Position numbers and translations under genes: made by a program. A DNA stretch of 64,000 nucleotides from Gammaproteobacteria bacterium (GTDB taxonomy: Bacteria; Pseudomonadota; Gammaproteobacteria; Xanthomonadales; Xanthomonadaceae): assembly GCA_025356635.1 (NCBI GenBank), contig JANXRY010000049.1:1-64000 (forward strand). The letters are read 5' to 3'. How positions within the stretch are numbered: the stretch's first letter is position 1; every line of letters begins with the position of its first letter. The notes under the pieces were generated by a model. The model was not told the DNA's origin. It ran no database searches and saw only the letters and a program-made list of their open reading frames with translations. Below are positions 8,811 to 22,842 of this stretch, piece by piece.

Positions 8811-9836
8811 TCAGGACGAGACGCGTATCGCCTTGGGGGAAACGCCCGTCCAGCGTTTGAAAGCGCGGCGAAATTCGCGCGCATCCCGGAAGCCCACCGC
8901 CGTGCCGATGTCGGCTATGGGGCGATTGCTGCCCTGGAGCAGGAGGCGCGCCTGTTCAGCACGGACCCGATCGTGCAGGGATTTGAAGCCGGTGCCGGCG
9001 GCACCAAGTTGCCGGCGCAGGGTACGTTCAGTGAGGTTGAGGGCGCCGGCGATATCGGCCAGCGGCGGGTTGTCCTTCAGCCGTTGCCGGAGCAGGCGTT
9101 CGACCGAGTCGATGATCTCGCTGCGGCGCGACGCCTCGGCCTGTTGCCGGCACAGCGACAGGGCCAATTGGGCGCTGATCGGATCGTAGTTGGGCAGCGG
9201 CGTCGCCAGCCAATGACTGGCGATGCGCGCGCAGCTCTCCGGCTGGGCAAAGCGCACTGGGCATTGGAACAGCTCCGCGTAGAAGGATGCGTAGGCCGGC
9301 GCCGGGTAGGCCAGGTCCAGACGCAGCGGCCGGAATTCTGGCCCGACCAGGCTTCGGCAAAGAATCAGTGAGCTCAGGAACAGCTCCTCGCACAGGAAGG
9401 GCAGGATTTCCGGATCGACTTGGCGCGGCTTGGCGATGATCGCGAACTCGTCGGCAGAGATCGGCGCAAACGAGATGTCCATCAGGCTGCCGGTGACGAT
9501 GTGGTTTTCCATGCTGATCGCCAGCGCGTCGCCGAAGGTGCGTGCCGTCATCATCGCCAGGCCGAGCACGCCGAAATTTCCGATGGTCTGGCGCCTGCCG
9601 ATCTGCAGGCCCAAGTCGGGCAGGGCCAGTGCCTTGATGGCGCGTTTGACCACGCGTCGTGCCTGCCGGAACGACACCCGCACGTTGGCATCGCGGATCT
9701 GTTCGCGGCTCAGGCCCAGGCCCCAGAACCAGCGCCGGCAATCGACGCCGCGGGCGTCGGCCAGTTCGCACAGGCAGGCGAGCTTGTTGGTGCTGAGCAT
9801 CGCATCGGTGAGACTGGCGTCACGGAGTGGTTTCAT
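8811..9836 (-). CDS. AraC-family transcriptional regulator (N-terminal arabinose-binding-like domain, OruR/ArgR type)
   Basis: C-terminal HTH: LADIAGALNLTERTLRRQLGAAGTGFKSLHDRVRAEQARLLLQGSNRPIADIGTAVGFRDAREFRRAFKRWTGVSP. Confidence 0.92.
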   Translation of the reverse strand: MKPLRDASLTDAMLSTNKLACLCELADARGVDCRRWFWGLGLSREQIRDANVRVSFRQARRVVKRAIKALALPDLGLQIGRRQTIGNFGVLGLAMMTARTFGDALAISMENHIVTGSLMDISFAPISADEFAIIAKPRQVDPEILPFLCEELFLSSLILCRSLVGPEFRPLRLDLAYPAPAYASFYAELFQCPVRFAQPESCARIASHWLATPLPNYDPISAQLALSLCRQQAEASRRSEIIDSVERLLRQRLKDNPPLADIAGALNLTERTLRRQLGAAGTGFKSLHDRVRAEQARLLLQGSNRPIADIGTAVGFRDAREFRRAFKRWTGVSPKAIRVSS

Positions 9837-9860
9837 GAGGGCCGCGCCTAGGGAGATTTG

Positions 9861-9897
9861 TCCGTTTTTCCCCCCTTAGTATGCCGGTTTTGCCCTC
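9861..9897. promoter_or_regulatory. Candidate AraC-type operator: two imperfect direct repeats with 22 bp period
   Basis: tccgtttttcccccc (9861-9875) and gccggttttgccctc (9883-9897), 11/15 identical, between the divergent AraC and beta-helix genes. Confidence 0.4.
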
Positions 9898-9977
9898 TGC
9901 CAGTGACGAGAATGGCGCAAGACTTGCGATCAAGCTTGGGCCCGAGCCCGGCACCCCGTTTGCCCTGGAGGCTATCC

Positions 9978-11204
9978 ATGCGTATCCGTCCCGCGCTTGC
10001 CCTGATCCTGCCGGCGTTGCTCGGCGCTTGCCAGAAAAATGCCCCCGCGCCGGTAGCCGGCGACGCCGCGTTCGCCAAGCAGCTGCAGGAACGATTGCTC
10101 GACGCCAAGCCGGGCGACGTTATCGAGATTCCCGCCGGCACCTACCATTTCGACCGCAGCCTGAGCCTGCGCGTGGACGGCGTCACCATTCGTGGCGCCG
10201 GCATGGACAAGACCATCCTGTCGTTCAAGGGCCAGATCAACGGTGCCGAGGGCATGTTGGTCAACGCCAGCGGCTTCACCCTGGAAAACCTCGCCATCGA
10301 GGACACCAAGGGCGATGGCCTGAAGGTCAACGAAGGCCAGGACATCACCATCCGCGGCGTGCGCGTGGAATGGACCGGCGGCCCGGACACCGGCAACGGC
10401 GCCTACGGCATCTACCCGGTCAAGACCCGCAACACCCTGGTCGAGAATTGCGTGGTGATTGGCGCCTCCGACGCCGGCATCTACGTCGGCCAATCGCGGA
10501 ATATCGTCATGCGCGGCAACCGCGCCGAGTTCAACGTCGCCGGCATCGAAGTCGAGAACTCGATCGACGCCGACGTCTACGGCAATACCGCCACCAACAA
10601 CACCGGCGGCATCCTGGTGTTCAACATGCCCAACATCACCCAGACCGGGCACAGCACCCGCGTGCACGGCAACAAGGTGTTCAAGAACAACACCGGCAAT
10701 TTCGCCGCCCGCGGCGCCGCCGTGGCCAGCGTGCCGGCGGGTTCGGGCGTGGTGATCAACTCCAACGACCTGGTCGAGATTTTCGACAACGACATCGCCG
10801 ACAACGACACCGCCAACGTCATCATCTCCAGCTACTGGTCGACCGGCTACATGAACAAGTACGGCGTGGCCAAGGATTACGATCCGTATCCGGAGGACAT
10901 CTACGTCTACGGCAATCGCTTCTCCGGCGGCGGCGCCTCGCCCGACGGCCTCGACTTGAAGACGCTGAAGGTGGCGATGTACGGCCTCAACGGACACTTC
11001 CCGGACATCCTCTGGGACGGTTACGCCAACAGCAAGCGCGTGGTCGACGGCAAGCCGGCCGGCAGTGGCATCTGCGTGAACAATGGCGAGGCGCATGTGC
11101 TCAATGCCGATGGGCCGGGCGGCTACAAGAACCCGGTGGACGCCACGGCGCCGTTCCGCTGCGACCTGCCGAAACTGCCGCCGGTCGTGCTCGGCAAGGC
11201 ATGA
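9978..11204 (+). CDS. Parallel beta-helix repeat lipoprotein (TIGR03805-like)
   Basis: Start [20 protein letters not shown] (lipobox LLGAC). Repeats such as [63 protein letters not shown]. Confidence 0.85.
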
Positions 11205-12373
11205 AGCCCGGCGACGCGATCCGTCGGCTCGTCCGCTGGTCCTGCGCGATCGGCGGATTGCTCGCGTTGTCCGGATTCCTCGGTTGCGCCCGCGCGCCCG
11301 GGCCGGTGGTGTTCCATGGCGAGGGATACCCGGAGCGCCTGAGCGATTGGCGGGTCCTGCTGGTGCGGGATGATCGCTTGCAGCTCAATCAGGGCGTGGT
11401 GCCCTACGACCTGAACACGCCGCTGTTCAGCGACTACGCGCACAAGCTGCGCACGATCTGGATGCCCAAGGGACGCGCCGCGCAGTACCGCACCAACGAC
11501 GCCTTCGATTTTCCGGTCGGCACCATCATCAGCAAGACGTTCTACTATCCGCGCGCGGCGTCCGGCACTGGCGACGGCACGACCTTGCTGCGCAACTATG
11601 ATGTGTCCGCCGACTTTTCCGGCGGGGCGTTGGCGCTAGACCGCGTGCACCTGGTCGAAACCCGGCTGCTGGTGCGGCGTGAATCCGGTTGGGTCGCCTT
11701 GCCCTACGTCTGGAACGCCGCCCAGGACGATGCCGAACTGGCGCGGGCCGGCGACGAGAAGCCACTGTCGCTCGTGGCGGCCGACGGCTCGCGCGAGCAT
11801 TTCACCTACGTCGTGCCGAACGCCAACCAGTGCGCAGGCTGCCATGCCACCGACAACAAGGCGCGGGCGATCCAACCGATCGGCCTGAAGGCGCGCCACC
11901 TCAATCGCGACTACGCCTACGCCGAAGGCGTCGAAAACCAATTGCTGCGCCTGGCGCGCGTCGGTTACCTGCAAGGGGCGCCAGCGCCCGCGCAGGCCCC
12001 GCGCAACGCCAACTGGCGCGATGCCTCGCAACCGCTGGCGGATCGCGCCCGCGCCTACCTCGACATCAACTGCGGCCATTGCCACAACCCGAAAGGCCCG
12101 GCCAACACTTCGGGCCTGTGGCTCGACATGGCCACTCCGTTCGGCGAGCGCCTGGGCTACTGCAAACCGCCGGTCGCCGCCGGGCAGGGTACTGGCGACC
12201 ACAAATTCGACCTGGTGCCCGGCCACCCGCAGGATTCCATCCTCAGCTACCGTCTGGCATCCACCGATCCGGGCGCGATGATGCCCGAGCTGGGTCGCGA
12301 TCTTCGGCACGAGGACGGCGTCGCCTTGATCAATGCCTGGATCGCGGCCATGCCCGGGGCATGCGTGCCGTGA
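11201..12373 (+). CDS. SO2930-family diheme c-type cytochrome, lipoprotein (TIGR03806-like)
   Basis: ATGA overlap with the previous gene. Lipobox LSGFLGC. Two heme motifs, CAGCH (NQCAGCHATDNKA) and CGHCH (DINCGHCHNPKGPANTSGLWL). Confidence 0.87.
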   Translation: MKPGDAIRRLVRWSCAIGGLLALSGFLGCARAPGPVVFHGEGYPERLSDWRVLLVRDDRLQLNQGVVPYDLNTPLFSDYAHKLRTIWMPKGRAAQYRTNDAFDFPVGTIISKTFYYPRAASGTGDGTTLLRNYDVSADFSGGALALDRVHLVETRLLVRRESGWVALPYVWNAAQDDAELARAGDEKPLSLVAADGSREHFTYVVPNANQCAGCHATDNKARAIQPIGLKARHLNRDYAYAEGVENQLLRLARVGYLQGAPAPAQAPRNANWRDASQPLADRARAYLDINCGHCHNPKGPANTSGLWLDMATPFGERLGYCKPPVAAGQGTGDHKFDLVPGHPQDSILSYRLASTDPGAMMPELGRDLRHEDGVALINAWIAAMPGACVP

Positions 12374-12411
12374 TGCGCGGGCAACCACCATTACCAACAG
12401 GGGAAACCAAC

Positions 12412-14856
12412 ATGACAATTCGCAAACACCGGCTCGCGGCCGGCCTCCAGCAGGCCTTGCTTGGCGGCGTGGTGATGGCGCTGGCCTTGCCGGGCGTGGC
12501 CCTGGCCGACGATCCGGCCCCGGCCGCGAAGGACGCCAAGAAGAAGCCCGACGCCGCCAGCCTGGGCGAGGTCGTGGTGACCTCGCAGAGCCGCGAGCAA
12601 CGGCTGCAGGAAGTGCCGATCACGGTGACCGTGGTCAACGACAAGTCCATCGACCAGCACGTGGCGATCGACCTGAGCGACATGAACGGTTTCATCCCGG
12701 GCCTGGTCGTTTCCGGCGATAGCCCGACCCAGCCGCGCTACCAGATTCGCGGGATCAGCACCGGCGATTTCGGCGTCGGCACCGATCCGGCGGTTGGCGT
12801 CTACATCGACGGCGTCTATTCCGCGCGCTCGGGCGGCGCCTTGCTCGCGCTGGACGACATCGAACGCATCGAGGTGCTCAAGGGCCCGCAGGGGACCCTG
12901 TTCGGGCGCAACAGCGCCGCCGGCGCCGTCTCGATTGTCACCAAGCGCCCCGGCGATGAGTTCGAGGGCCGGGCGCGGGTTCGCTGGGGCAGCGATGGCC
13001 TCCAGTATTTCGACGCCCTGCTCAACGCGCCGACCGGCGAGCACAGCGCGCTACGCATCAGCGCGCTGAGCAACAAGAGCGACGGTTGGCTCACCGACGG
13101 CGCCACCGGCCAGAAATACGGCGGCGACGATGTCTGGGCGGCGCGGGCCTCGTTCCGCTGGGACGCCAGCGACAGCACGCAGCTCCTGTTCACCTGGGAC
13201 CACGAGGACCTCAACCAGCTCGCCCGTCCGGCGATCGGGATCGTGGCCTTGCCGCCGTATCCGGGCTTGCCGACCTATCCGGCCGATCCCTCGACCTATC
13301 TCGATCCGCTGCACGCGTCAATCTTCAACGACGTCGTCGGCAACGAGGAATCGCGGACGTTCGACGGCGGCACCCTGAGCATCGAGCACAACGCCGACTG
13401 GGGCAGCGTGGTCTCGACCACCGCATGGCGCGGCTTCGACACCGTCAATCGCGAGGACGAGGACGGCACCAACCGGATCAACCTCTACTTCGACACCGCC
13501 AATCGCGAGAAGAACCGCAGCTGGTACCAGGAGTTCAAGTTCTCCGGCGCCAACGACCGCATCGACTGGGTGGCGGGCCTGAGCTACTACGACGAGAACG
13601 CCCATCAGGCCAGCGAGACCAATGCCTTCACCGACAGCATGGACACCGTGCTCAACAACCTGGCCGGCCTCCCGGCCTACTCGCTGGTCGAGCAGGTGCT
13701 GCAGGCCTACCAGATCCCGGTGACGCTGTTCGGGCACAGCTGGCAGGAAACCATGACCAACGAGGGCCGCTTCAAGTCGTACGCGGTATTCGGCGACGTG
13801 ATCTGGCACCTCAACGACCACTTCAACCTGACCACCGGCCTGCGCTACACGGACGACCGCAAGGATTTCAGCTGGCTCAATGGCCCGCGCGTGGCGCCGG
13901 AGCTCGACGCCGCGCTGGCGGTGCTCGACCAAGCCGGGTTCTTCGATCTGGATCCGCTGCTGCAGTTGATCCGGCCGGTGTTCAACCAGGACGTCGTGTT
14001 CGCCCTTCCCGCCGACGTCGAGGGCCAGACGATCAGGAGTCGCAAGTCCTGGAATGACTTCAGCCCGCGCGTCGTGCTCGACTACCACCCGAACGACCAG
14101 CTGATGTGGTTCGGCTCGATCGCGAAGGGCTACAAGGCCGGCGGCTTCAACAGCGTCGAGGTCGGTTCGCAGTTCAACAACGAGGATGTCTGGAACTACG
14201 AGCTCGGCTTCAAGAGCGGCATGCCCGACCTGCGCCTGCAGCTCAACGGATCGATCTACTACTACGTCTACAGCAACAAGCAGTCGATCCGACTGGACCC
14301 CAATACCGCCGGTTCCGGCATTCCGCAATACCTGGTGGACACCAGCGACGAGCAGGCCTGGGGCGTCGAGTTCGAGGGCCAGTGGCAGGCGACGGACGCG
14401 CTCGGCTTCCAGGCCAACATGGCCTACATCGATGCGACCTACAAGGACAAGGTCACCTCGACTGGCGTGGATCTTTCCGGCGAACCCACCGGCGAGCCGA
14501 ACTGGTCGTTCGCCTTCGGCGGCAACTACCGCTGGCTGACCCGTCATGGCGACGTCGAACTGTCCGTTCAGAGCTCCTACCGCGGCGCCAGCCGTTGCAA
14601 TGGCGATTCGCAATTGCAGGGCACTTGCCAGGTCAGTCCGAACTTCCGCACCGGCGCGGCGCAGCAGCGCACTGATATCCGGCTGGGCTGGACCTCGCCG
14701 GACGATCGTTGGGCGGTCTCGGTCTTCGGCACCAACGTCTTCGACAAGCGCTACGTCACCGGTGTCAGCAACCTGACCACCAGTGTGTTCGGCACGCCGA
14801 ACGCCTCGATCACGCCGCCCAGGGCCTGGGGCGTGGAGTTGCGCGCCTCGTTCTAG
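12412..14856 (+). CDS. TonB-dependent receptor
   Basis: Signal peptide, TonB-box-like GEVVVTSQSREQ, plug motif IRGISTGDFGVGTDPAVGVYIDGVY...VLKGPQGTLFGRNSAAGAVSIVTKRP, and C-terminal WGVELRASF ending in Phe. Confidence 0.95.
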   Translation: MTIRKHRLAAGLQQALLGGVVMALALPGVALADDPAPAAKDAKKKPDAASLGEVVVTSQSREQRLQEVPITVTVVNDKSIDQHVAIDLSDMNGFIPGLVVSGDSPTQPRYQIRGISTGDFGVGTDPAVGVYIDGVYSARSGGALLALDDIERIEVLKGPQGTLFGRNSAAGAVSIVTKRPGDEFEGRARVRWGSDGLQYFDALLNAPTGEHSALRISALSNKSDGWLTDGATGQKYGGDDVWAARASFRWDASDSTQLLFTWDHEDLNQLARPAIGIVALPPYPGLPTYPADPSTYLDPLHASIFNDVVGNEESRTFDGGTLSIEHNADWGSVVSTTAWRGFDTVNREDEDGTNRINLYFDTANREKNRSWYQEFKFSGANDRIDWVAGLSYYDENAHQASETNAFTDSMDTVLNNLAGLPAYSLVEQVLQAYQIPVTLFGHSWQETMTNEGRFKSYAVFGDVIWHLNDHFNLTTGLRYTDDRKDFSWLNGPRVAPELDAALAVLDQAGFFDLDPLLQLIRPVFNQDVVFALPADVEGQTIRSRKSWNDFSPRVVLDYHPNDQLMWFGSIAKGYKAGGFNSVEVGSQFNNEDVWNYELGFKSGMPDLRLQLNGSIYYYVYSNKQSIRLDPNTAGSGIPQYLVDTSDEQAWGVEFEGQWQATDALGFQANMAYIDATYKDKVTSTGVDLSGEPTGEPNWSFAFGGNYRWLTRHGDVELSVQSSYRGASRCNGDSQLQGTCQVSPNFRTGAAQQRTDIRLGWTSPDDRWAVSVFGTNVFDKRYVTGVSNLTTSVFGTPNASITPPRAWGVELRASF

Positions 14857-14865
14857 GGCAGGAAA

Positions 14866-14898
14866 AGCGGGGAAAACGGCCTTTCCGTTTTCCCCGCT
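14866..14898. terminator. Perfect 14-bp inverted repeat (terminator-like hairpin, no strong T tract)
   Basis: agcggggaaaacgg-ccttt-ccgttttccccgct directly after the TonB receptor stop codon. Confidence 0.55.
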
Positions 14899-14923
14899 GG
14901 CCGCTGACCGCTAAACTGTCGGG

Positions 14924-16108
14924 ATGCCCGGACCCGACCGACCCCTGATCCTGCTGCGCAATGCCGAGGTCTGCGCCCCCGAACGGCTGGGGCGTCGGCA
15001 GGTCTTGCTTGGCGGTGGCCGGATCCTGTGGATCGGCGCGGCGTCCGACGAGGCCCCGCGTGGCCTGCCGATGGAGGTGGTCGACCTCGAAGGCCGGTGC
15101 CTGTTGCCCGGCCTGATCGATGGCCACGTGCATGTCACTGGCGGCGGCGGCGAGGGCGGTTTCGCCACCCGGGTGCCGCCGGTCCCGCTGTCGCGGTTTA
15201 CTTCCGCTGGCATCACCACGGTGATCGGCCTGCTCGGTACCGACGATTGCGCGCGCACGCCGCGTGAATTGGTCGCGACCTTGCTCGCCCTGCGCGAGGA
15301 AGGTCTCGGCGCCTACGGTTACTGCGGCGGCTACCACTTGCCACCGGCCACGATCACCGGCAGCGTCTGCGGCGATATCGTCTTTGTCGATCCGCTGATT
15401 GGTGTCGGCGAACTGGCGATCAGCGACCACCGTTCCAGCCAACCGACCTTCGACCAGTTGTTGCACGTTGCCTCCGAAGCGCATGTGGCCGGGCTGATGA
15501 CCGGCAAGGCCGGTATTGTTCATTTGCATCTGGGCGATGGCGCGCGTGGCCTCGAACTAGTTCGCCGCGCGCTCGCCGAAAGCGAATTGCCGGCGCGGGT
15601 GTTCAACCCCACCCACGTCAATCGCCGCAAGGCATTGTTCGAGGAAGCGGTCGAACTCGCGCGGCGTGGTTGTTCGATCGACCTGACCGCCTTTCCGGTC
15701 GAAGACGGCGAAGATGCCTGGAGCGCGGCCGACGGACTGATACGCTATCTCGAATCCGGCGCGCCGGTGGAGCGGATCACGATCAGTTCCGATGCCGGCG
15801 GTTGTCTGCCGTGTTTCGATGGCGACGGCCGCATGACTCATATGGATGTCGGCGCGCCCGGTGCCTTGTTGACGACGCTGCGCGAACTGCTTGCACGTGG
15901 CTTGCCGATGGAACGCGCACTGCCGGCGTGCACCGCGAATGTCGCGCGCTTGCTGCGCTTGCCCGGCAAGGGCGTGATTGCCGTCGGTGCCGATGCCGAT
16001 CTATTGGTGCTCGACGAACACGGTCAGGCTCGCGACGTGATCGCCGGCGGCCGCTGGCACCGACGCGATGGCGAGCGAAGCCGACGCGGTACCTTCGAAG
16101 TCGCCTGA
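14924..16108 (+). CDS. iadA: Isoaspartyl dipeptidase (beta-aspartyl-peptidase)
   Basis: Amidohydrolase motif GLIDGHVHVTGGGGEGGFATRVP, VIGLLGTD, FNPTHVNR and SSDAGGCLPCFD, all typical of IadA. Confidence 0.92.
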   Translation: MPGPDRPLILLRNAEVCAPERLGRRQVLLGGGRILWIGAASDEAPRGLPMEVVDLEGRCLLPGLIDGHVHVTGGGGEGGFATRVPPVPLSRFTSAGITTVIGLLGTDDCARTPRELVATLLALREEGLGAYGYCGGYHLPPATITGSVCGDIVFVDPLIGVGELAISDHRSSQPTFDQLLHVASEAHVAGLMTGKAGIVHLHLGDGARGLELVRRALAESELPARVFNPTHVNRRKALFEEAVELARRGCSIDLTAFPVEDGEDAWSAADGLIRYLESGAPVERITISSDAGGCLPCFDGDGRMTHMDVGAPGALLTTLRELLARGLPMERALPACTANVARLLRLPGKGVIAVGADADLLVLDEHGQARDVIAGGRWHRRDGERSRRGTFEVA

Positions 16109-16144
16109 CTTCTCAGAATTTCATACCAAGGATGGCAAGACCGG

Positions 16145-16987
16145 ATGTGCCCAAGCAAAACCCCTGACGGCGAAGAGCGCGGCTGGATCATTCCGATTGG
16201 CGGCGCCGAGGAAAAAGACAATGATCCGGTGATCCTGCGCCGCTTCGTCGAATTATGTGGCGGCGATGAAGCCGACATCGTGGTGATTCCGACCGCCAGC
16301 CGGCGCTCGGATACCGGCTCGCGGTACGAAGCGATCTTTCGGGAGCTTGGCGTCGCGCGGGTCGCCGCGATCGATTTCGATACCCGTCGCGACTGCGAGG
16401 AAAAAGGCCGCCTGCAACGGATCGGCGAGGCCAGCGGCCTGTTCTTCACCGGCGGCAACCAGTTGCGCCTGACCACGCTGCTCGGCGGCACCTCGGTGGC
16501 GAAACTGATCCGGCTACGCAATGCCGCCGGCACGCACGTAGCCGGCACCAGCGCCGGCGCGGCTGTGCTCAGCGAGCACATGATCGCTTTCGGTGAGGAA
16601 GGCGGTTCGCCGCGTGCCGGTAGCGTGCGCCTGGCGCCCGGGCTGGGGCTGACCAATCGCTTCATCATCGACCAGCATTTTCGCCAGCGTGACCGCCTCG
16701 GCCGCCTGGCCACCGCGCTGGCCTTCAATCCGTTCGCGATCGGCATCGGCCTGGACGAAGACACCGCCGCCTTCATCGCACCGGACAATACCGTTGAAAT
16801 CGTCGGCAGCGGCGCGGTTACGGTGATCGACGCCGCCGGCCTGCAGTTCTCCTCGATGGATCGCATCGAGGAGGGTGAGCCGGTTTGCCTGTTGGGCCTG
16901 GCCGTCCATATCCTCGTCTCCGGTGCTACCTTCAACCTGCATACCCGCCAGGCCAGCGCTGGCAGCCTGATCACGCCCAAGGAGTAA
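16145..16987 (+). CDS. cphB: Cyanophycinase
   Basis: IPIGGAEEKDNDPVILRRFVELCGG, GLFFTGGNQLRL, and nucleophile motif GTSAGAAVLSEHMI; adjacent to cphA. Confidence 0.94.
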   Translation: MCPSKTPDGEERGWIIPIGGAEEKDNDPVILRRFVELCGGDEADIVVIPTASRRSDTGSRYEAIFRELGVARVAAIDFDTRRDCEEKGRLQRIGEASGLFFTGGNQLRLTTLLGGTSVAKLIRLRNAAGTHVAGTSAGAAVLSEHMIAFGEEGGSPRAGSVRLAPGLGLTNRFIIDQHFRQRDRLGRLATALAFNPFAIGIGLDEDTAAFIAPDNTVEIVGSGAVTVIDAAGLQFSSMDRIEEGEPVCLLGLAVHILVSGATFNLHTRQASAGSLITPKE

Positions 16988-16992
16988 GTGTG

Positions 16993-19794
16993 ATGCGTAT
17001 CCTCGATCGTTCCGTGTTCGTCGGCCCTTCGTTGTATGCGCATTTCCCGGTCATCCGGCTCGAACTCGACCTGGGCGCGCTGGAAGCCTGGCCGACCGGA
17101 AAACTCGGTGCGGCCTACGTTGACGCGCTGGTCGCTGCCCTGCCGGGGCTGGCCGATCACGGCTGCTCCTACCGCGAACCCGGCGGCCTGATCCGGCGCA
17201 TGAAGGAAGGCGAGGGCACCTGGCTGGGCCACGTGCTCGAGCACGTGGCGATCGAATTGCAGAACGTCGCGGGTGAGGACGTCACCTTCGGCAAGACCCG
17301 CAGCATCGACGACCGCCCCGGCGTGTACTCGGTGGTCTACGAATACGCGCAGCGTGAAGAAGGCATCGCTGCTGGCGAACTGGCCCTGCGCCTGTTGTGC
17401 TCGTTGTTGCCGACGGAATTACAACCGGCCGACAGCGTGCCTTCGGATTGGCATTGGCCGGAGGCGCGTGACCAGTTCATCCGCTACGCGCAACGGCGCG
17501 CGCTTGGGCCTTCGACCGCCTCGTTGGTCAAGGCCGCCGAGGAACGCAACATTCCGTGGTTGCGGCTCAACGAGCAATCGCTGGTGCAGCTTGGCCACGG
17601 TCGTTTCCAGCAGCGCATCCAGGCCACCGTCACCGGCAAGACGCCGCATATCGCGGTGGAGCTCGCCAGCGACAAGGAAGAAACCAACAAGATCCTCGGC
17701 ACGCTCGGCTTGCCCGTGCCGCGCCAGGAACTGGTGCAGAGCGAATCGCAGGCGGTGCGCGCGGCGCGCCGCATCGGTTACCCAGTGGTGACCAAACCCT
17801 ACAACGGCAACCACGGCCGCGGCATTTCGATTCGCCTGACCAACGCGGAAGAAGTGATCGCCGGCTTCGTCAAGGCCAAGGAAATTTCGCGTTCGGTGAT
17901 TGTCGAGACCTTCCTCGAAGGCGATGATCATCGTTTGCTGGTGGTCAATGGCGAGCTGGTCGCAGCGACCCGGCGCACACCCGGCCACGTGGTCGGCGAC
18001 GGCGTGCATACGATCACTCAATTGGTCGAGATCGTGAACCAGGATCCGCGCCGTGGCGTCGGCCACGAGAAAGTGCTGACCCGGCTCGAACTCGACGCGC
18101 AGGCACAAATGATGATGGCGCGCGCCGAAGTCACTGCCGACAGCGTGCCCGAAGCCGGTCGCGCGATTTATCTGCGTTCGACCGCGAACCTGTCGACCGG
18201 CGGTACTGCCACCGATGTCACCGACGTCATCCATCCCGACAACCGCGACATGGCGGTGCGCGCGATCAAGGCGATCGGCCTGGATGTTGGCGGCGTCGAT
18301 TTTCTTTCCACCAACATTGCTGATAGCTACAAGGCGATCGGCGGCGGCATCTGCGAGGTCAATGCCGCGCCCGGTTTCCGCATGCATGTGGCGCCCAGCG
18401 AAGGCACGCCGCGCGACGTCGCCGGCCCGGTGATCGACATGCTGTTTCCGCATGGCACATCAACGCGCGTGCCGATCTCGGCAATCACCGGCACCAACGG
18501 CAAGACCACCACCGCGCGCATGCTTGCGCATATCGTCAAGATGGCTGGCTATACGCCGGGCCTGACCACCACCGACGGCGTCTACATCGACGGCCAGCGC
18601 ACGGTCGAAGGCGACATGACCGGCCCGGTCTCGGCGCGGATGGTGCTGGCCGATCCGCAGATTGACTTCGCCGTGCTGGAAACCGCGCGCGGCGGCCTGA
18701 TCCGCGCCGGCATGGGCGTGAGCAAGGTCGACGTCGGTGCCGTGCTCAACGTGCAATCCGATCACCTGGGCATGAAGGGCGTGGACACGCTCGAGCAGCT
18801 GGCCGAGATCAAGCGGATTGTCGTCGAGGTCGCGACCGATTGCGCCGTGCTCAACGCCGACGATCCGAACGTGCTGAAAATGTCCGGCTACACCGACGCC
18901 AAGGTGATCTGTTACGTCACCTTGAATCCACAGCACGGCTTGGTACGCGAGCATATCCGCGCTGGCGGCCGCGCCTGCGCGCTCGAGGCCGGCGTCAACG
19001 GCCAGATGATCACGCTCTACGACAAGGGCAGCCATATTCCGCTGCTGTGGACCCACTTGATTCCGGCGACGCTGGAAGGCCGCGCCCTGCACAACGTGCA
19101 GAACGCGATGTTCGCCGCTGCGATCGCTTTCTCCCATGGCATAAAACTCGATGCGATCCGCCAGGGCCTGCGCACCTTCGACAGCACCTTCTTCCAGGCG
19201 CCGGGCCGGATGAACGTGTACGACGAGCATCCGTTCAAGGTGCTGTTCGACTACGGCCACAACGCGCACGCAGTCGGCGTGATGGCCGACCTCGCACAGC
19301 GCCTGGACGTGCCAGGCCGGCGCATCGTGGTGATCGCCGGTCCCGGCGATCGCCGCGACGAGGACCTGCGCGACATCGCCAAGGCGGTCGCTGGTCGCTT
19401 CGACCACTACATCGCCCGGCGCGACGACGACCTGCGCGGCCGCGCCGGCGACGAAGTGCCCAAACTGATCGCGGCGACTTTGCGCGAACACGGCGTTGCC
19501 AGTGAAATCATCTCGATCATTCCCGACGAACAGGAGGCGATTGAAGCCGGTCTGCGGATGGGCCAGCCAGGCGATCTCGTGCTGATCTTCGCCGATTCGT
19601 TGACGCGCTCGTGGAAGCAGGTGATCAAGTTCCGTCCCGAAGGCGCGCCCGAGCAGGTGGCCAAGCCGGCGCCCTCGGCGGCGGCGGTGATCGAAGTGTC
19701 GCCAGCGGCCGAAATGGCCTTCACCGCGTTGCAATGGGAAGGCGTGGTGCGCGATGAGCGCGGCATCACGCTGTCGCGGGAGCAGGACGACTGA
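16993..19794 (+). CDS. cphA: Cyanophycin synthetase
   Basis: N domain (FVGPSLYAHFPVIRLEL), ATP-grasp region (VVTKPYNGNHGRGISI) and Mur-ligase P-loop ITGTNGKTTTARML. ATG at 16993 is supported by homology of the N-terminus. Confidence 0.96.
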   Translation: MRILDRSVFVGPSLYAHFPVIRLELDLGALEAWPTGKLGAAYVDALVAALPGLADHGCSYREPGGLIRRMKEGEGTWLGHVLEHVAIELQNVAGEDVTFGKTRSIDDRPGVYSVVYEYAQREEGIAAGELALRLLCSLLPTELQPADSVPSDWHWPEARDQFIRYAQRRALGPSTASLVKAAEERNIPWLRLNEQSLVQLGHGRFQQRIQATVTGKTPHIAVELASDKEETNKILGTLGLPVPRQELVQSESQAVRAARRIGYPVVTKPYNGNHGRGISIRLTNAEEVIAGFVKAKEISRSVIVETFLEGDDHRLLVVNGELVAATRRTPGHVVGDGVHTITQLVEIVNQDPRRGVGHEKVLTRLELDAQAQMMMARAEVTADSVPEAGRAIYLRSTANLSTGGTATDVTDVIHPDNRDMAVRAIKAIGLDVGGVDFLSTNIADSYKAIGGGICEVNAAPGFRMHVAPSEGTPRDVAGPVIDMLFPHGTSTRVPISAITGTNGKTTTARMLAHIVKMAGYTPGLTTTDGVYIDGQRTVEGDMTGPVSARMVLADPQIDFAVLETARGGLIRAGMGVSKVDVGAVLNVQSDHLGMKGVDTLEQLAEIKRIVVEVATDCAVLNADDPNVLKMSGYTDAKVICYVTLNPQHGLVREHIRAGGRACALEAGVNGQMITLYDKGSHIPLLWTHLIPATLEGRALHNVQNAMFAAAIAFSHGIKLDAIRQGLRTFDSTFFQAPGRMNVYDEHPFKVLFDYGHNAHAVGVMADLAQRLDVPGRRIVVIAGPGDRRDEDLRDIAKAVAGRFDHYIARRDDDLRGRAGDEVPKLIAATLREHGVASEIISIIPDEQEAIEAGLRMGQPGDLVLIFADSLTRSWKQVIKFRPEGAPEQVAKPAPSAAAVIEVSPAAEMAFTALQWEGVVRDERGITLSREQDD

Positions 19795-21554
19795 GCGCGC
19801 TGCCGCTGCTGCCGTTTGAGGATTCGCGCCGCCTGACCGGACCCAATCTGTACTTCGCCGAGACCGGCGTAGTGCTGGAGGTTATCGGTCCCGGCGCCGA
19901 CGACGCGGCTTTGCATGCGCGTTGGTGCGAGCGCATCGCACAGGGAAGACGCATTCTTGCTTGGCCGGAGCTGGCCATCGTCGTTCGTCCGCATCCGGGC
20001 GGCGCGACTCTGGCGTTCGCCGCGCCGGTCGACCAATTGTTTTGCGCGACCGAACTCAACGAATGGGCCTGGCTGGCCACGGTCGATGTCGCTGAATGCC
20101 ATGCGCCCGGATTTGCGGCGAGTTGGGACGAAGCCAGCGCCTTCCAAACGCTGCGCTTGTTCGCGGCGGCGGAAGCCCGGCCCGATCTCGTCACCCTGCT
20201 CGCTACAGCAAAAGATCGCGGGCTTCCGACCTTGCTCGATGATGATCGACTCACGCTCGGATTGGGTGAGGGCGGCCGCACTTGGCCACGTGAGAGGTTG
20301 CCGGCGATTGCCGATGTGCCCTGGCCGGAACTGCATGGCATACCCACTGCTTTGGTCACCGGTTCCAACGGCAAGACCACCACCGTGCGCTTGCTCGCTG
20401 CATTGCTTCGCGCACACGGGCTGCGCTGCGCGCATTCGTGCACCGACGGCGTGTTCTTCGAAGGTCGGGCGCTGGTCTCCGGCGATTATTCCGGGCCGGC
20501 CGGTGCGCGCACGGTGTTGCGCCATCCGGACGTGGCGGCCGCAGTATTGGAAACCGCGCGCGGCGGCATCCTGCGCCGCGGACTGGCGGTTGAGCGCGCC
20601 GATGTCGCGGTGGTGACCAATATCAGCGCCGACCACTACGGCGAATACGGCATCCACGACCTCGATGACTTGGCCGATACCAAGTTGACGATGGCACGCG
20701 CGCTGGTTTCCGAAGGCGTGCTCGTGGTCAATGCCGATGATGTTCTGTTGCGCGCCAAGGCGATGACATGCGGCAAGCGGCTGGCATGGTTCGCATTGAA
20801 CGATGCGCATCCGACCCTGAGCGCACATCGCACGCGAGATGGCATGACCAGCGGTGTCGGCAATGGGCGCCTGATGCTGTCGGTCACCGGGATGCAACAC
20901 GATCTGGGTGATGTCGTGGCGATGCCGCTCACGGCCGAAGGTCACGCCGGCTACAACATCGCCAACATCGCTGCGGCGGTACTGGCGGCGGTTTGCCTGG
21001 GCGTTACCGTCGAAACAATTCGCCGCGTGCTGGCGGAATTCGGCAACGATCCCGCCGACAATCCCGGGCGCTTGCAGCGCTGGACGTTTGCTGACGTGAA
21101 GGTGCTCATGGACTACGCGCATAACCCCGATGGCTTGCGCGGCTTGCTCACCATTGCCGCCACCCTCGCGAATGGCGCGCGCCTGGGTTTGCTGCTGGGC
21201 CAGGCGGGCAATCGGGGGAATGCGGAAATTCGCGATCTGGCCGCTGTCGCCGCCGACTTCGCCCCGCGTTTCGTGGTGCTCAAGGACATCGATGGCTACC
21301 TGCGCGGGCGCGCACCGGGCGAGGTCGCGGAAATCCTGAAGAACGAATTGCGCCAACGCGGTTTCGCCGATCTCGATTTGCCGCAGCGCCTGGGCGAGGC
21401 CGAGGCTGCACGCGAAGCGCTGCGGCTGATTCATGCAGGCGAAGTGCTGGTACTGCCGGTGCATGCGGCCAAGGCGCGCGTGGAAGTTGCAGCCTTTCTT
21501 GACGACCTGCGGTCAGCGGGGTGGACGGCCGGGGAAGCGCTACCGGGCGAATAA
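19791..21554 (+). CDS. CphA-like Mur ligase family protein (cphA'), lacks ATP-grasp domain; start codon uncertain
   Basis: P-loop VTGSNGKTTTVRLL, VLETARGGILRRGL and VTNISADHYGEYG. The open frame upstream of the listed GTG (19872) encodes RRLTGPNLYFAETGVVLE, similar to the CphA N-terminus, so translation probably begins near 19791 (CTG). Confidence 0.85.
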   Translation: MSALPLLPFEDSRRLTGPNLYFAETGVVLEVIGPGADDAALHARWCERIAQGRRILAWPELAIVVRPHPGGATLAFAAPVDQLFCATELNEWAWLATVDVAECHAPGFAASWDEASAFQTLRLFAAAEARPDLVTLLATAKDRGLPTLLDDDRLTLGLGEGGRTWPRERLPAIADVPWPELHGIPTALVTGSNGKTTTVRLLAALLRAHGLRCAHSCTDGVFFEGRALVSGDYSGPAGARTVLRHPDVAAAVLETARGGILRRGLAVERADVAVVTNISADHYGEYGIHDLDDLADTKLTMARALVSEGVLVVNADDVLLRAKAMTCGKRLAWFALNDAHPTLSAHRTRDGMTSGVGNGRLMLSVTGMQHDLGDVVAMPLTAEGHAGYNIANIAAAVLAAVCLGVTVETIRRVLAEFGNDPADNPGRLQRWTFADVKVLMDYAHNPDGLRGLLTIAATLANGARLGLLLGQAGNRGNAEIRDLAAVAADFAPRFVVLKDIDGYLRGRAPGEVAEILKNELRQRGFADLDLPQRLGEAEAAREALRLIHAGEVLVLPVHAAKARVEVAAFLDDLRSAGWTAGEALPGE

Positions 21555-21642
21555 GTGCCTGCCAGCCGGCCCCTCGCCGCATCGCTTTCCGTTACCCTAT
21601 TAGGCAATCGCGAAGCCGGGTGCTCGCGTTGGAGGGTGTGCC

Positions 21643-22842
21643 TTGCCGCAGGAAGTCAATCCGTTACTGAACCAGGTCTCCAGACTCGATACGCAGACAG
21701 CGGTCGAGCGCCTGGACCTGCGCGATCCGGTCGAAGTGGCTGCGTTGCTTGCGGGGCTTCCGCCGGCGCGGGCGATCACCATACTTTCGGCCTTGTCGGA
21801 GGAAGCGCGTGAGCGAATCCTTGCCGCCGCCCCGGCGGGCACTGACTGGATGGACTCCCTGCGTTACCCCGAAGGCAGCGTCGGCCGCTTGCTCGAAGAT
21901 CCGCCGGCAGTATTTCGCAGCGGCACAAGCGTGGCGACGGCGGTGGACATCCTCCGAGAAACGATTCGCAAGCGGATGGTCACCTATCTGTTCGTGGTCG
22001 ATGCGGGCAATCACCTGATCGGCGTGGTCGCATTCCGCGAATTGCTCTATGCCGAGCGCACCCAGACGCTCGATCAGGTGATGCTGCCCTCGCCATTTTT
22101 CCTGGAACCGGAAACGACCCTCGTCCAGGCGATGCGCGAGGTCGTTACCCGGCACTATCCGGTGTATCCGGTCTGCGAGGCTGATGGCACCCTGGTCGGC
22201 CAGGTCCGTGGCCAGACTCTGTTCGAGCAACAGGCGTTCGAAATTTCCGCGCAGGCCGGCTCCATGGTCGGCGTCGAGAAAGAAGAGCGCCTGGCAACGC
22301 CGCTGATGCGCAGTTTCAAGTTCCGCCACCCGTGGCTGCAGATCAATTTGTTGACGGTATTCATCACGGCGGCGGTGGTGGGCATCTTCCAGGGCACCAT
22401 CGACAAGATCGTGGTGCTGGCCATGTTCCTGCCAGTGCTCGGCGGACAGAGCGGCAACCTTGGCTGCCAGTCGCTGGCGGTGGTGTTGCGTGGCATGACC
22501 TTGGGCGAGTTGCGCGGAACACGGATCGCTGCCCTGATCGCCAAGGAGGCGACGCTGGGATTGCTAAATGGCATGGTGACCGGCGTGTTGGCAGGTATCG
22601 CGATGTTCATCGTCGCCGGCCGGCATCCGGAAAACGGCTCGCCGATCTACCTCGGGATTATCACCATGGTCGCGATGTCGGTCAGCTGCATGATTGCCGG
22701 GATTGCCGGCACAACGATTCCGCTGGTGCTGCGCCGATTTGGTGCCGACCCGGCGACAGCATCGAGCATTTTCCTGACCACGATCACCGATGTCTGCAGC
22801 ATGGGTAGTTTTCTCTCCATGGTGACCTGGCTGCTGCTGTGA
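21643..22842 (+). CDS. mgtE: Magnesium transporter MgtE
   Basis: TTG start. MgtE_N region, CBS domains ([18 protein letters not shown]) and C-terminal membrane segments ([23 protein letters not shown]). Confidence 0.93.

Follow-up and report, generated by a model that had tools for sequence, protein, structure and literature searches.

The gene that directly follows cphA1 in the window, by which we mean the whole stretch of 64,000 nucleotides analyzed here, encodes a protein in which an N domain of the cyanophycin synthetase type is joined to a Mur-ligase domain and the ATP-grasp domain is absent. This architecture was proposed in the original prediction and is confirmed by Pfam, by the NCBIfam model TIGR02068 and by AlphaFold2 models compared with known structures by Foldseek. 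We refer to the protein as N-M. Its best explanation, to which, taken as a whole, we would grant an even chance, is a Mur-type ligase that acts in trans in the cyanophycin pathway and attaches amino acids with a specificity different from that of CphA1.

Gene layout and domain architecture

The window carries iadA, cphB, cphA1, the N-M gene and mgtE in this order on the + strand (Table 1), and the N-M gene is found as a single copy in the genome. The CphA1 of the window matches the N domain, the RimK-type ATP-grasp and the Mur domains in Pfam, and scores 1101 bits with TIGR02068. A scan for promoters and terminators in positions 14700-21900 yielded nothing that exceeded shuffled controls. Ahead of the cph operon (8811-14856), the window encodes an AraC-type regulator, a parallel beta-helix-like protein, a cytochrome-like protein (CxxCH) and a TonB-dependent receptor; the latter was rejected as an operon member, being absent from every other locus fetched.

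The N-M frame consists of 587 open codons (19791-21551), followed by a stop codon at 21552-21554. From the in-frame stop upstream to the conserved SRRLTG motif, this frame contains no ATG, GTG or TTG, and a gene caller that uses only the three usual starts begins at GTG 19872, thereby losing this motif. A canonical start is missing in seven of 45 N-M loci (the window, L005, L010, L012, L016, L020 and L073), and in all seven the overlap with the cphA1 stop reads CTGA, while in the other loci it reads ATGA, TTGA or GTGA. Judging from the sequence, translation likely starts at the CTG at 19791, and N-M and CphA1 are presumably co-produced via translational coupling. We also considered that cphA1 and the N-M gene might be fused through a frameshift but judged this unlikely, because the N-M frame of L010 has a stop codon immediately before the CTG.

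In Pfam, the protein matches Mur_ligase_M at residues 189-400 (67.5 bits) and Mur_ligase_C at residues 426-554 (42.8 bits), both above the gathering score, and matches no ATP-grasp family. TIGR02068, which describes cyanophycin synthetase, scores 332.9 bits, short of its cut-off of 850, and covers only model positions 476-853. The ATP-grasp motif KPxxGxHGRG was found in none of 42 N-M proteins. A match to DUF4938 was discarded as spurious, as it lay below the cut-off and appeared in only one or two members of the family (1 of 24 orthologues).

The AlphaFold2 model of the full-length protein has a pLDDT of 92.7; its top PDB matches are CphA1 chains (TM to query of 0.82 or less), and the structural alignments extend through the entire CphA1 chain. 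Residues 1-184, modeled separately (pLDDT 94.9), have no PDB match at E<=0.001 other than CphA1 chains (E 8e-6 to 7e-4, probability 1.00). After ten such chains, the next match is a designed protein with E 0.02, and no ATP-grasp enzyme is found among the matches listed. A divergent ATP-grasp fold concealed in residues 1-180, which the original prediction had considered as the finding that would speak against it, is thus ruled out by the profile searches, AlphaFold2 and Foldseek.

The N domain presents a beta-beta-alpha-beta-beta-alpha-alpha topology and the motif SRRLTGPNLYF. It is not matched by Pfam PF18921, and a PDB profile search with the N-terminal part of the protein gave chance-level matches only; the N-domain assignment therefore rests on the fold and on hhalign rather than on HMMER. 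For hhalign, residues 6-180 of 42 N-M proteins were compared with 48 CphA1s. Residues 109-164 aligned with CphA1 150-208 (P 1.4e-5, 80% probability), a stretch that covers LGPSTxxLVxAAxxRxIPxxRLxxxSLVQLGxG, a motif found where the CphA1 G domain starts. The N-terminal GPN motif falls in the same order in the CphA1 alignment, a signal that is weak by itself (P 0.012). The claim that the first 180 or so residues form a CphA-type N domain thus stands as regards the fold but not as regards its extent, since residues 109-164 comprise the last part of N and the beginning of G. The missing part should therefore correspond to about residues 209-487 of CphA1, and the protein looks like an N domain followed by the head of a G domain and then M, with about 280 CphA residues deleted.

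The metal site of the N domain (Cx19HxxEH), with its metallopeptidase motif HxxEH, is found in none of the 42 N-M proteins and is present in the partner CphA1s listed, including that of the window. In CphA1, this zinc site serves primer production (PMC9262961). Lacking it, N-M should not cut cyanophycin, and as the partner CphA1 possesses it, CphA1 should not need priming help from N-M. The net charge of the N and M domains is not clearly different between N-M and CphA1. In several Xanthomonadales-type genomes (L074:5714-8338, L077:5362-7620 and L078:3786-6137), an endonuclease-like DUF559 domain of ~150-190 aa is inserted in frame within a loop of the N domain (residues 98-104).

Table 1 Features of the cph operon and of the N-M protein in the window, with related genes in other genomes. 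Positions without a locus prefix are those of the window.
Feature	Position	Strand	Evidence or remark
iadA, isoaspartyl dipeptidase	14924..16108	+	TIGR01975
cphB, cyanophycinase	16145..16987	+	TIGR02069, peptidase S51
cphA1, full N-G-M cyanophycin synthetase	16993..19794	+	G and M motifs intact; N-domain HVLEH
N-M protein (N domain and Mur ligase), named CphA' in the original prediction	19791..21554	+	587 aa; Pfam, NCBIfam, AlphaFold2, Foldseek, 23 orthologous loci
Inferred N-M start codon CTG	19791..19793	+	Overlaps cphA1 stop TGA (19792-19794) as CTGA
N domain, residues about 1-128	19791..20174	+	AlphaFold2 and Foldseek, motif scan
Putative relic of G-domain head, residues 109-164	20115..20282	+	Matches CphA1 150-208 (N/G border)
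Mur-ligase M domain, residues 181-562	20331..21476	+	TIGR02068 model 476-853, E 3.6e-99
P-loop TGSNGKTT, residues 190-197	20358..20381	+	K195 = SuCphA1 K499
R263, putative specificity position	20577..20579	+	41/41 N-M; A/S in same-genome CphA1 (SuCphA1 A567)
R303, putative specificity position	20697..20699	+	SuCphA1 E607 position; R/K/H in 37/41 N-M, E in 33/35 partner CphA1s
Loop KDIDGYLRGR, residues 498-507	21282..21311	+	Corresponds in position to the MurE DNPR motif
N-M genes unlinked from cphA1	L056:7497-9419, L075:9156-10883
Upstream second cph genes (four genomes, other families)	L051:6818-9001, L052:7733-9757, L058:6776-9094, L059:6886-9168

Active site and putative specificity positions

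The P-loop lysine K195 and the catalytic lysine K298 are present in all 41 N-M proteins compared. In SuCphA1 numbering, K499, D536, E558, R561, D585, H586 and K602, as well as N696, R731, D745, N749, R777 and R805, are invariant in these proteins, the positions of T500 and T522 are occupied by T or S, and R807 is retained in 39 of 41. In the alignment, R777 and R805 coincide with the arginines by which MurE binds its incoming amino acid. In TeCphA1, activity requires K499, and Mg is held by T500, T522 and E558 (PMC9427784), while the substitutions D585A H586A leave SuCphA1 with an inactive M domain (PMC9262961). As the Mur catalytic residues are fully conserved, the M site of N-M should be active, and the protein is very probably an active ligase of the cyanophycin pathway. 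That it could perform the Mur-type isopeptide step without extending the backbone, as had been suggested, is the natural reading of a protein from which ATP-grasp is absent and in which these residues are kept.

Around this conserved site, several positions that are constant in the partner CphA1s, and that are putative contacts of the polymer or of the amino acid, are consistently switched and nearly fixed in N-M. In addition to R263 and R303 (Table 1), the latter at the position of SuCphA1 E607, which touches cyanophycin (PMC9262961), the position of Q727 holds D or E in 39 of 41 N-M proteins, that of A728 holds N in all 41, and position 803 holds Y, M, H or F in all 41. R778 is R in 35 of 35 partner CphA1s and D, S, G, E and others in N-M proteins; D802 is D in 34 of the 35 partners and G, K, A, S and others in N-M. 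The DNPR motif of MurE determines amino-acid specificity, and the N-M loop at its position (residues 498-507) is two residues longer than that of CphA1 and lacks the CphA1 Asp pair. Between R777 and R805, the loop counts 28 residues in 42 of 47 CphA1s and 30 in 37 of 42 N-M proteins. This loop varies, however, in CphA1s of other clades as well (e.g., YQDQCQRGR in L051), and therefore cannot serve as a reliable read-out of Arg specificity.

The roles of the switched positions are taken from the SuCphA1 contacts and from homology to MurE, and this should be considered when referring to them as specificity positions. Since they are switched relative to CphA1, another residue or acceptor would be favored over a repeat of the Arg step. 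The specificity of N-M thus probably differs from that of CphA1, a view that we hold with somewhat less confidence than that of an active ligase.

Distribution and evolution

A first scan, with one genome per species, yielded 23 near-full-length N-M orthologues in named genomes. As in the window, cphA1 lies immediately upstream of the N-M gene in 22 of the 23 loci, while the 23rd (L004) ends at a contig end; cphB, and often also iadA, are found ahead of cphA1. The family, which forms one clade, ranges over Proteobacteria and metagenome-assembled genomes (MAGs) labelled Gemmatimonadota and Acidobacteriota, and among 398 genomes of the same order, at least 98 contain the protein. Cultured hosts that carry the operon include Arenimonas composti (L011) and Lysobacter antarcticus (L009). 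Across 41 relatives and 274 class, 398 phylum and 398 order genomes, N-M is found, among the matches listed, beside a CphA1-type match, and in none of the genomes checked was it found without cphA1. One apparent orphan, G034, was rejected, as the start of cphA1 lies at a contig end of its assembly. In the genus of G034 and its relative G692, the N-M gene is nonetheless unlinked from cphA1 and has as its neighbors an msbA-like gene for an ABC transporter and a gene resembling lpxK; the latter was identified by inspection and the pair is conserved in the two genomes. The same order, cphB-cphA-'Mur ligase family protein', is annotated on Ruegeria plasmids and on those of a record named Roseateles. 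One genome, G801, contains two pairs of cphA1 and N-M on two contigs (L079 and L080).

In a maximum-likelihood tree of M domains, all 41 N-M proteins form one clade (support 94/79), separate from every CphA1. The distances among N-M proteins and among their partner CphA1s are strongly correlated over 35 pairs (Mantel r 0.92, reached in none of 5000 permutations), and the mean M-domain distance is 0.55 for N-M versus 0.31 for CphA1. In three N-M pairs, dN/dS is about 0.19, 0.27 and 0.17, and between the N-M genes of the window and L004, dN is 0.19 and dS 0.99. The N-M gene is under purifying selection and is not a broken gene. The CphA1s of Acinetobacter and Tatumella, which presumably make cyanophycin without an N-M-type partner, fall inside the partnered CphA1 clade of this tree, and N-M is therefore better considered an addition than a replacement of a lost function. 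Two records, L017 (a MAG labelled Intrasporangium) and L025 (Kuenenia), carry the operon but cluster with rows from Proteobacteria and Gemmatimonadaceae, which may reflect faulty binning or a recent transfer.

Proposed role and relation to known enzymes

Sequence and fold show, to the extent that they can, that N-M arose when a complete cyanophycin synthetase lost its ATP-grasp core. We propose that it has retained a working Mur-type ligase site, as the conservation of the catalytic residues suggests. Acting in trans, it would use ATP to phosphorylate an acceptor carboxylate on a cyanophycin chain, an oligomer or a dipeptide and then link an amino acid there through an amide bond. Because its putative pocket and polymer-contact positions differ from those of CphA1, the residue attached would most likely be one other than Arg, or the carboxylate a different one, such as the chain end. 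More tentatively, N-M may be a dedicated second ligase for side chains or end groups, whose hosts store hetero-decorated or capped cyanophycin with two Mur-type sites per ATP-grasp site. The prevailing view is that cyanophycin is made by one self-sufficient enzyme, and N-M would add to it a second ligase, conserved in many Proteobacteria as part of the cphA1 operon. As N-M combines a complete catalytic site with changes at its putative specificity residues, the natural polymer of its hosts may not be plain poly-Asp-Arg. N-M could also serve as a tool to alter polymer composition, which is relevant to the material uses of cyanophycin.

Other roles should be considered. N-M might be a second arginine ligase that repeats, in trans, the CphA1 step joining Arg to the Asp side chain, so as to increase throughput or fill unmodified Asp residues. 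An intact Mur site, retained R777 and R805, which are expected to hold the amino-acid carboxylate, and constant pairing with CphA1 would all agree with this; however, the M domain of the partner CphA1 is already intact, and a pure duplicate would not need contact positions that are so consistently switched, and we thus find this role unlikely. Strict pairing, along with the retained N domain and N-M arrangement and the translation overlap with cphA1, is also what one would expect of a non- or weakly catalytic accessory subunit, which would occupy the position of one CphA1 protomer in a mixed oligomer and adjust chain length, priming or the form of the granules. We doubt that this is the case, as a pseudoenzyme would not be expected to keep its catalytic residues fixed in 41 of 41 proteins under low dN/dS. 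W672 of SuCphA1, the mutation of which yields a dimeric enzyme, is moreover unconserved in N-M, as it is in the partner CphA1s.

Activity off the polymer, in which N-M would ligate small molecules or dipeptides, such as beta-aspartyl dipeptides for IadA or as primers, could be read from the presence of iadA and cphB in the operon and from the one genus where the gene lies beside msbA-lpxK. Yet the protein retains the CphA-type N domain, the part of CphA1 to which the polymer binds (PMC9262961), and in the genomes checked it always occurred together with cphA1, making this quite improbable. A decaying pseudogene, or an artefact of assembly or start assignment, arising from a duplicated cphA1 might come to mind when a domain is missing and the window offers no canonical start codon, but with 23 named loci and at least 98 genomes of the order sharing the architecture, a clade of its own and dN/dS about 0.2, this can hardly be the explanation.

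With regard to known systems, the trans-acting ligase that we favor shares with CphA1 (7LG5/7LGQ, 7WAC, 7LGM, 7LGN) the N-domain fold, the M domain, the catalytic residues and the operon, and its M domain is 33% identical to that of the window's own CphA1. It differs from CphA1 in the short G head, the lack of HxxEH, the separate M-domain clade and the switched putative specificity positions. Cyanobacterial CphA2 is likewise a single-active-site derivative of the CphA architecture without HxxEH. The active site kept in CphA2 is that of the G domain, with an inactive M domain, whereas N-M retains M and lacks G and is thus its mirror image. With its single active site, CphA2 polymerizes beta-Asp-Arg dipeptides (PMC10206079), and the contrast with CphA2 that had been drawn for this gene agrees with that report. 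N-M also shares with MurE and other Mur ligases the M and C domains, the P-loop, the DH pair, the catalytic Lys and the Arg residues of the amino-acid site. Unlike MurC-F, however, it begins with a CphA-type N domain, residues 1-184 of which match CphA1 only, rather than with a UDP-MurNAc-binding first domain, and its M region matches TIGR02068 with E 3.6e-99, versus about 1e-24 for the MurE models.

We found no description of the family, or of a Mur ligase beside cphA, in the open-access literature searched, and NCBI names its members 'Mur ligase family protein'. The label CphA' used for the gene in the original prediction is misleading, as a different second cph gene is found upstream of cphA1 in other genomes (Table 1). 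The latter matches N and ATP-grasp, its M domain is cut short and has lost the P-loop lysine, and it abuts or overlaps cphA1. The two types of gene adjoin cphA1 alike but are opposite with respect to ATP-grasp, the P-loop of M and the side on which they lie, and the CphA1 that partners the upstream gene belongs to another clade than the CphA1 that partners N-M. We assume that the upstream gene is probably CphA' of Ralstonia eutropha; being probably the CphA' of the literature, it leaves N-M in need of another name. In such a tandem cluster, an ABC transporter has been reported to neighbor 'two copies of cphA' (PMC10687191), and L051 indeed contains an ABC transporter in its tandem cphA cluster.
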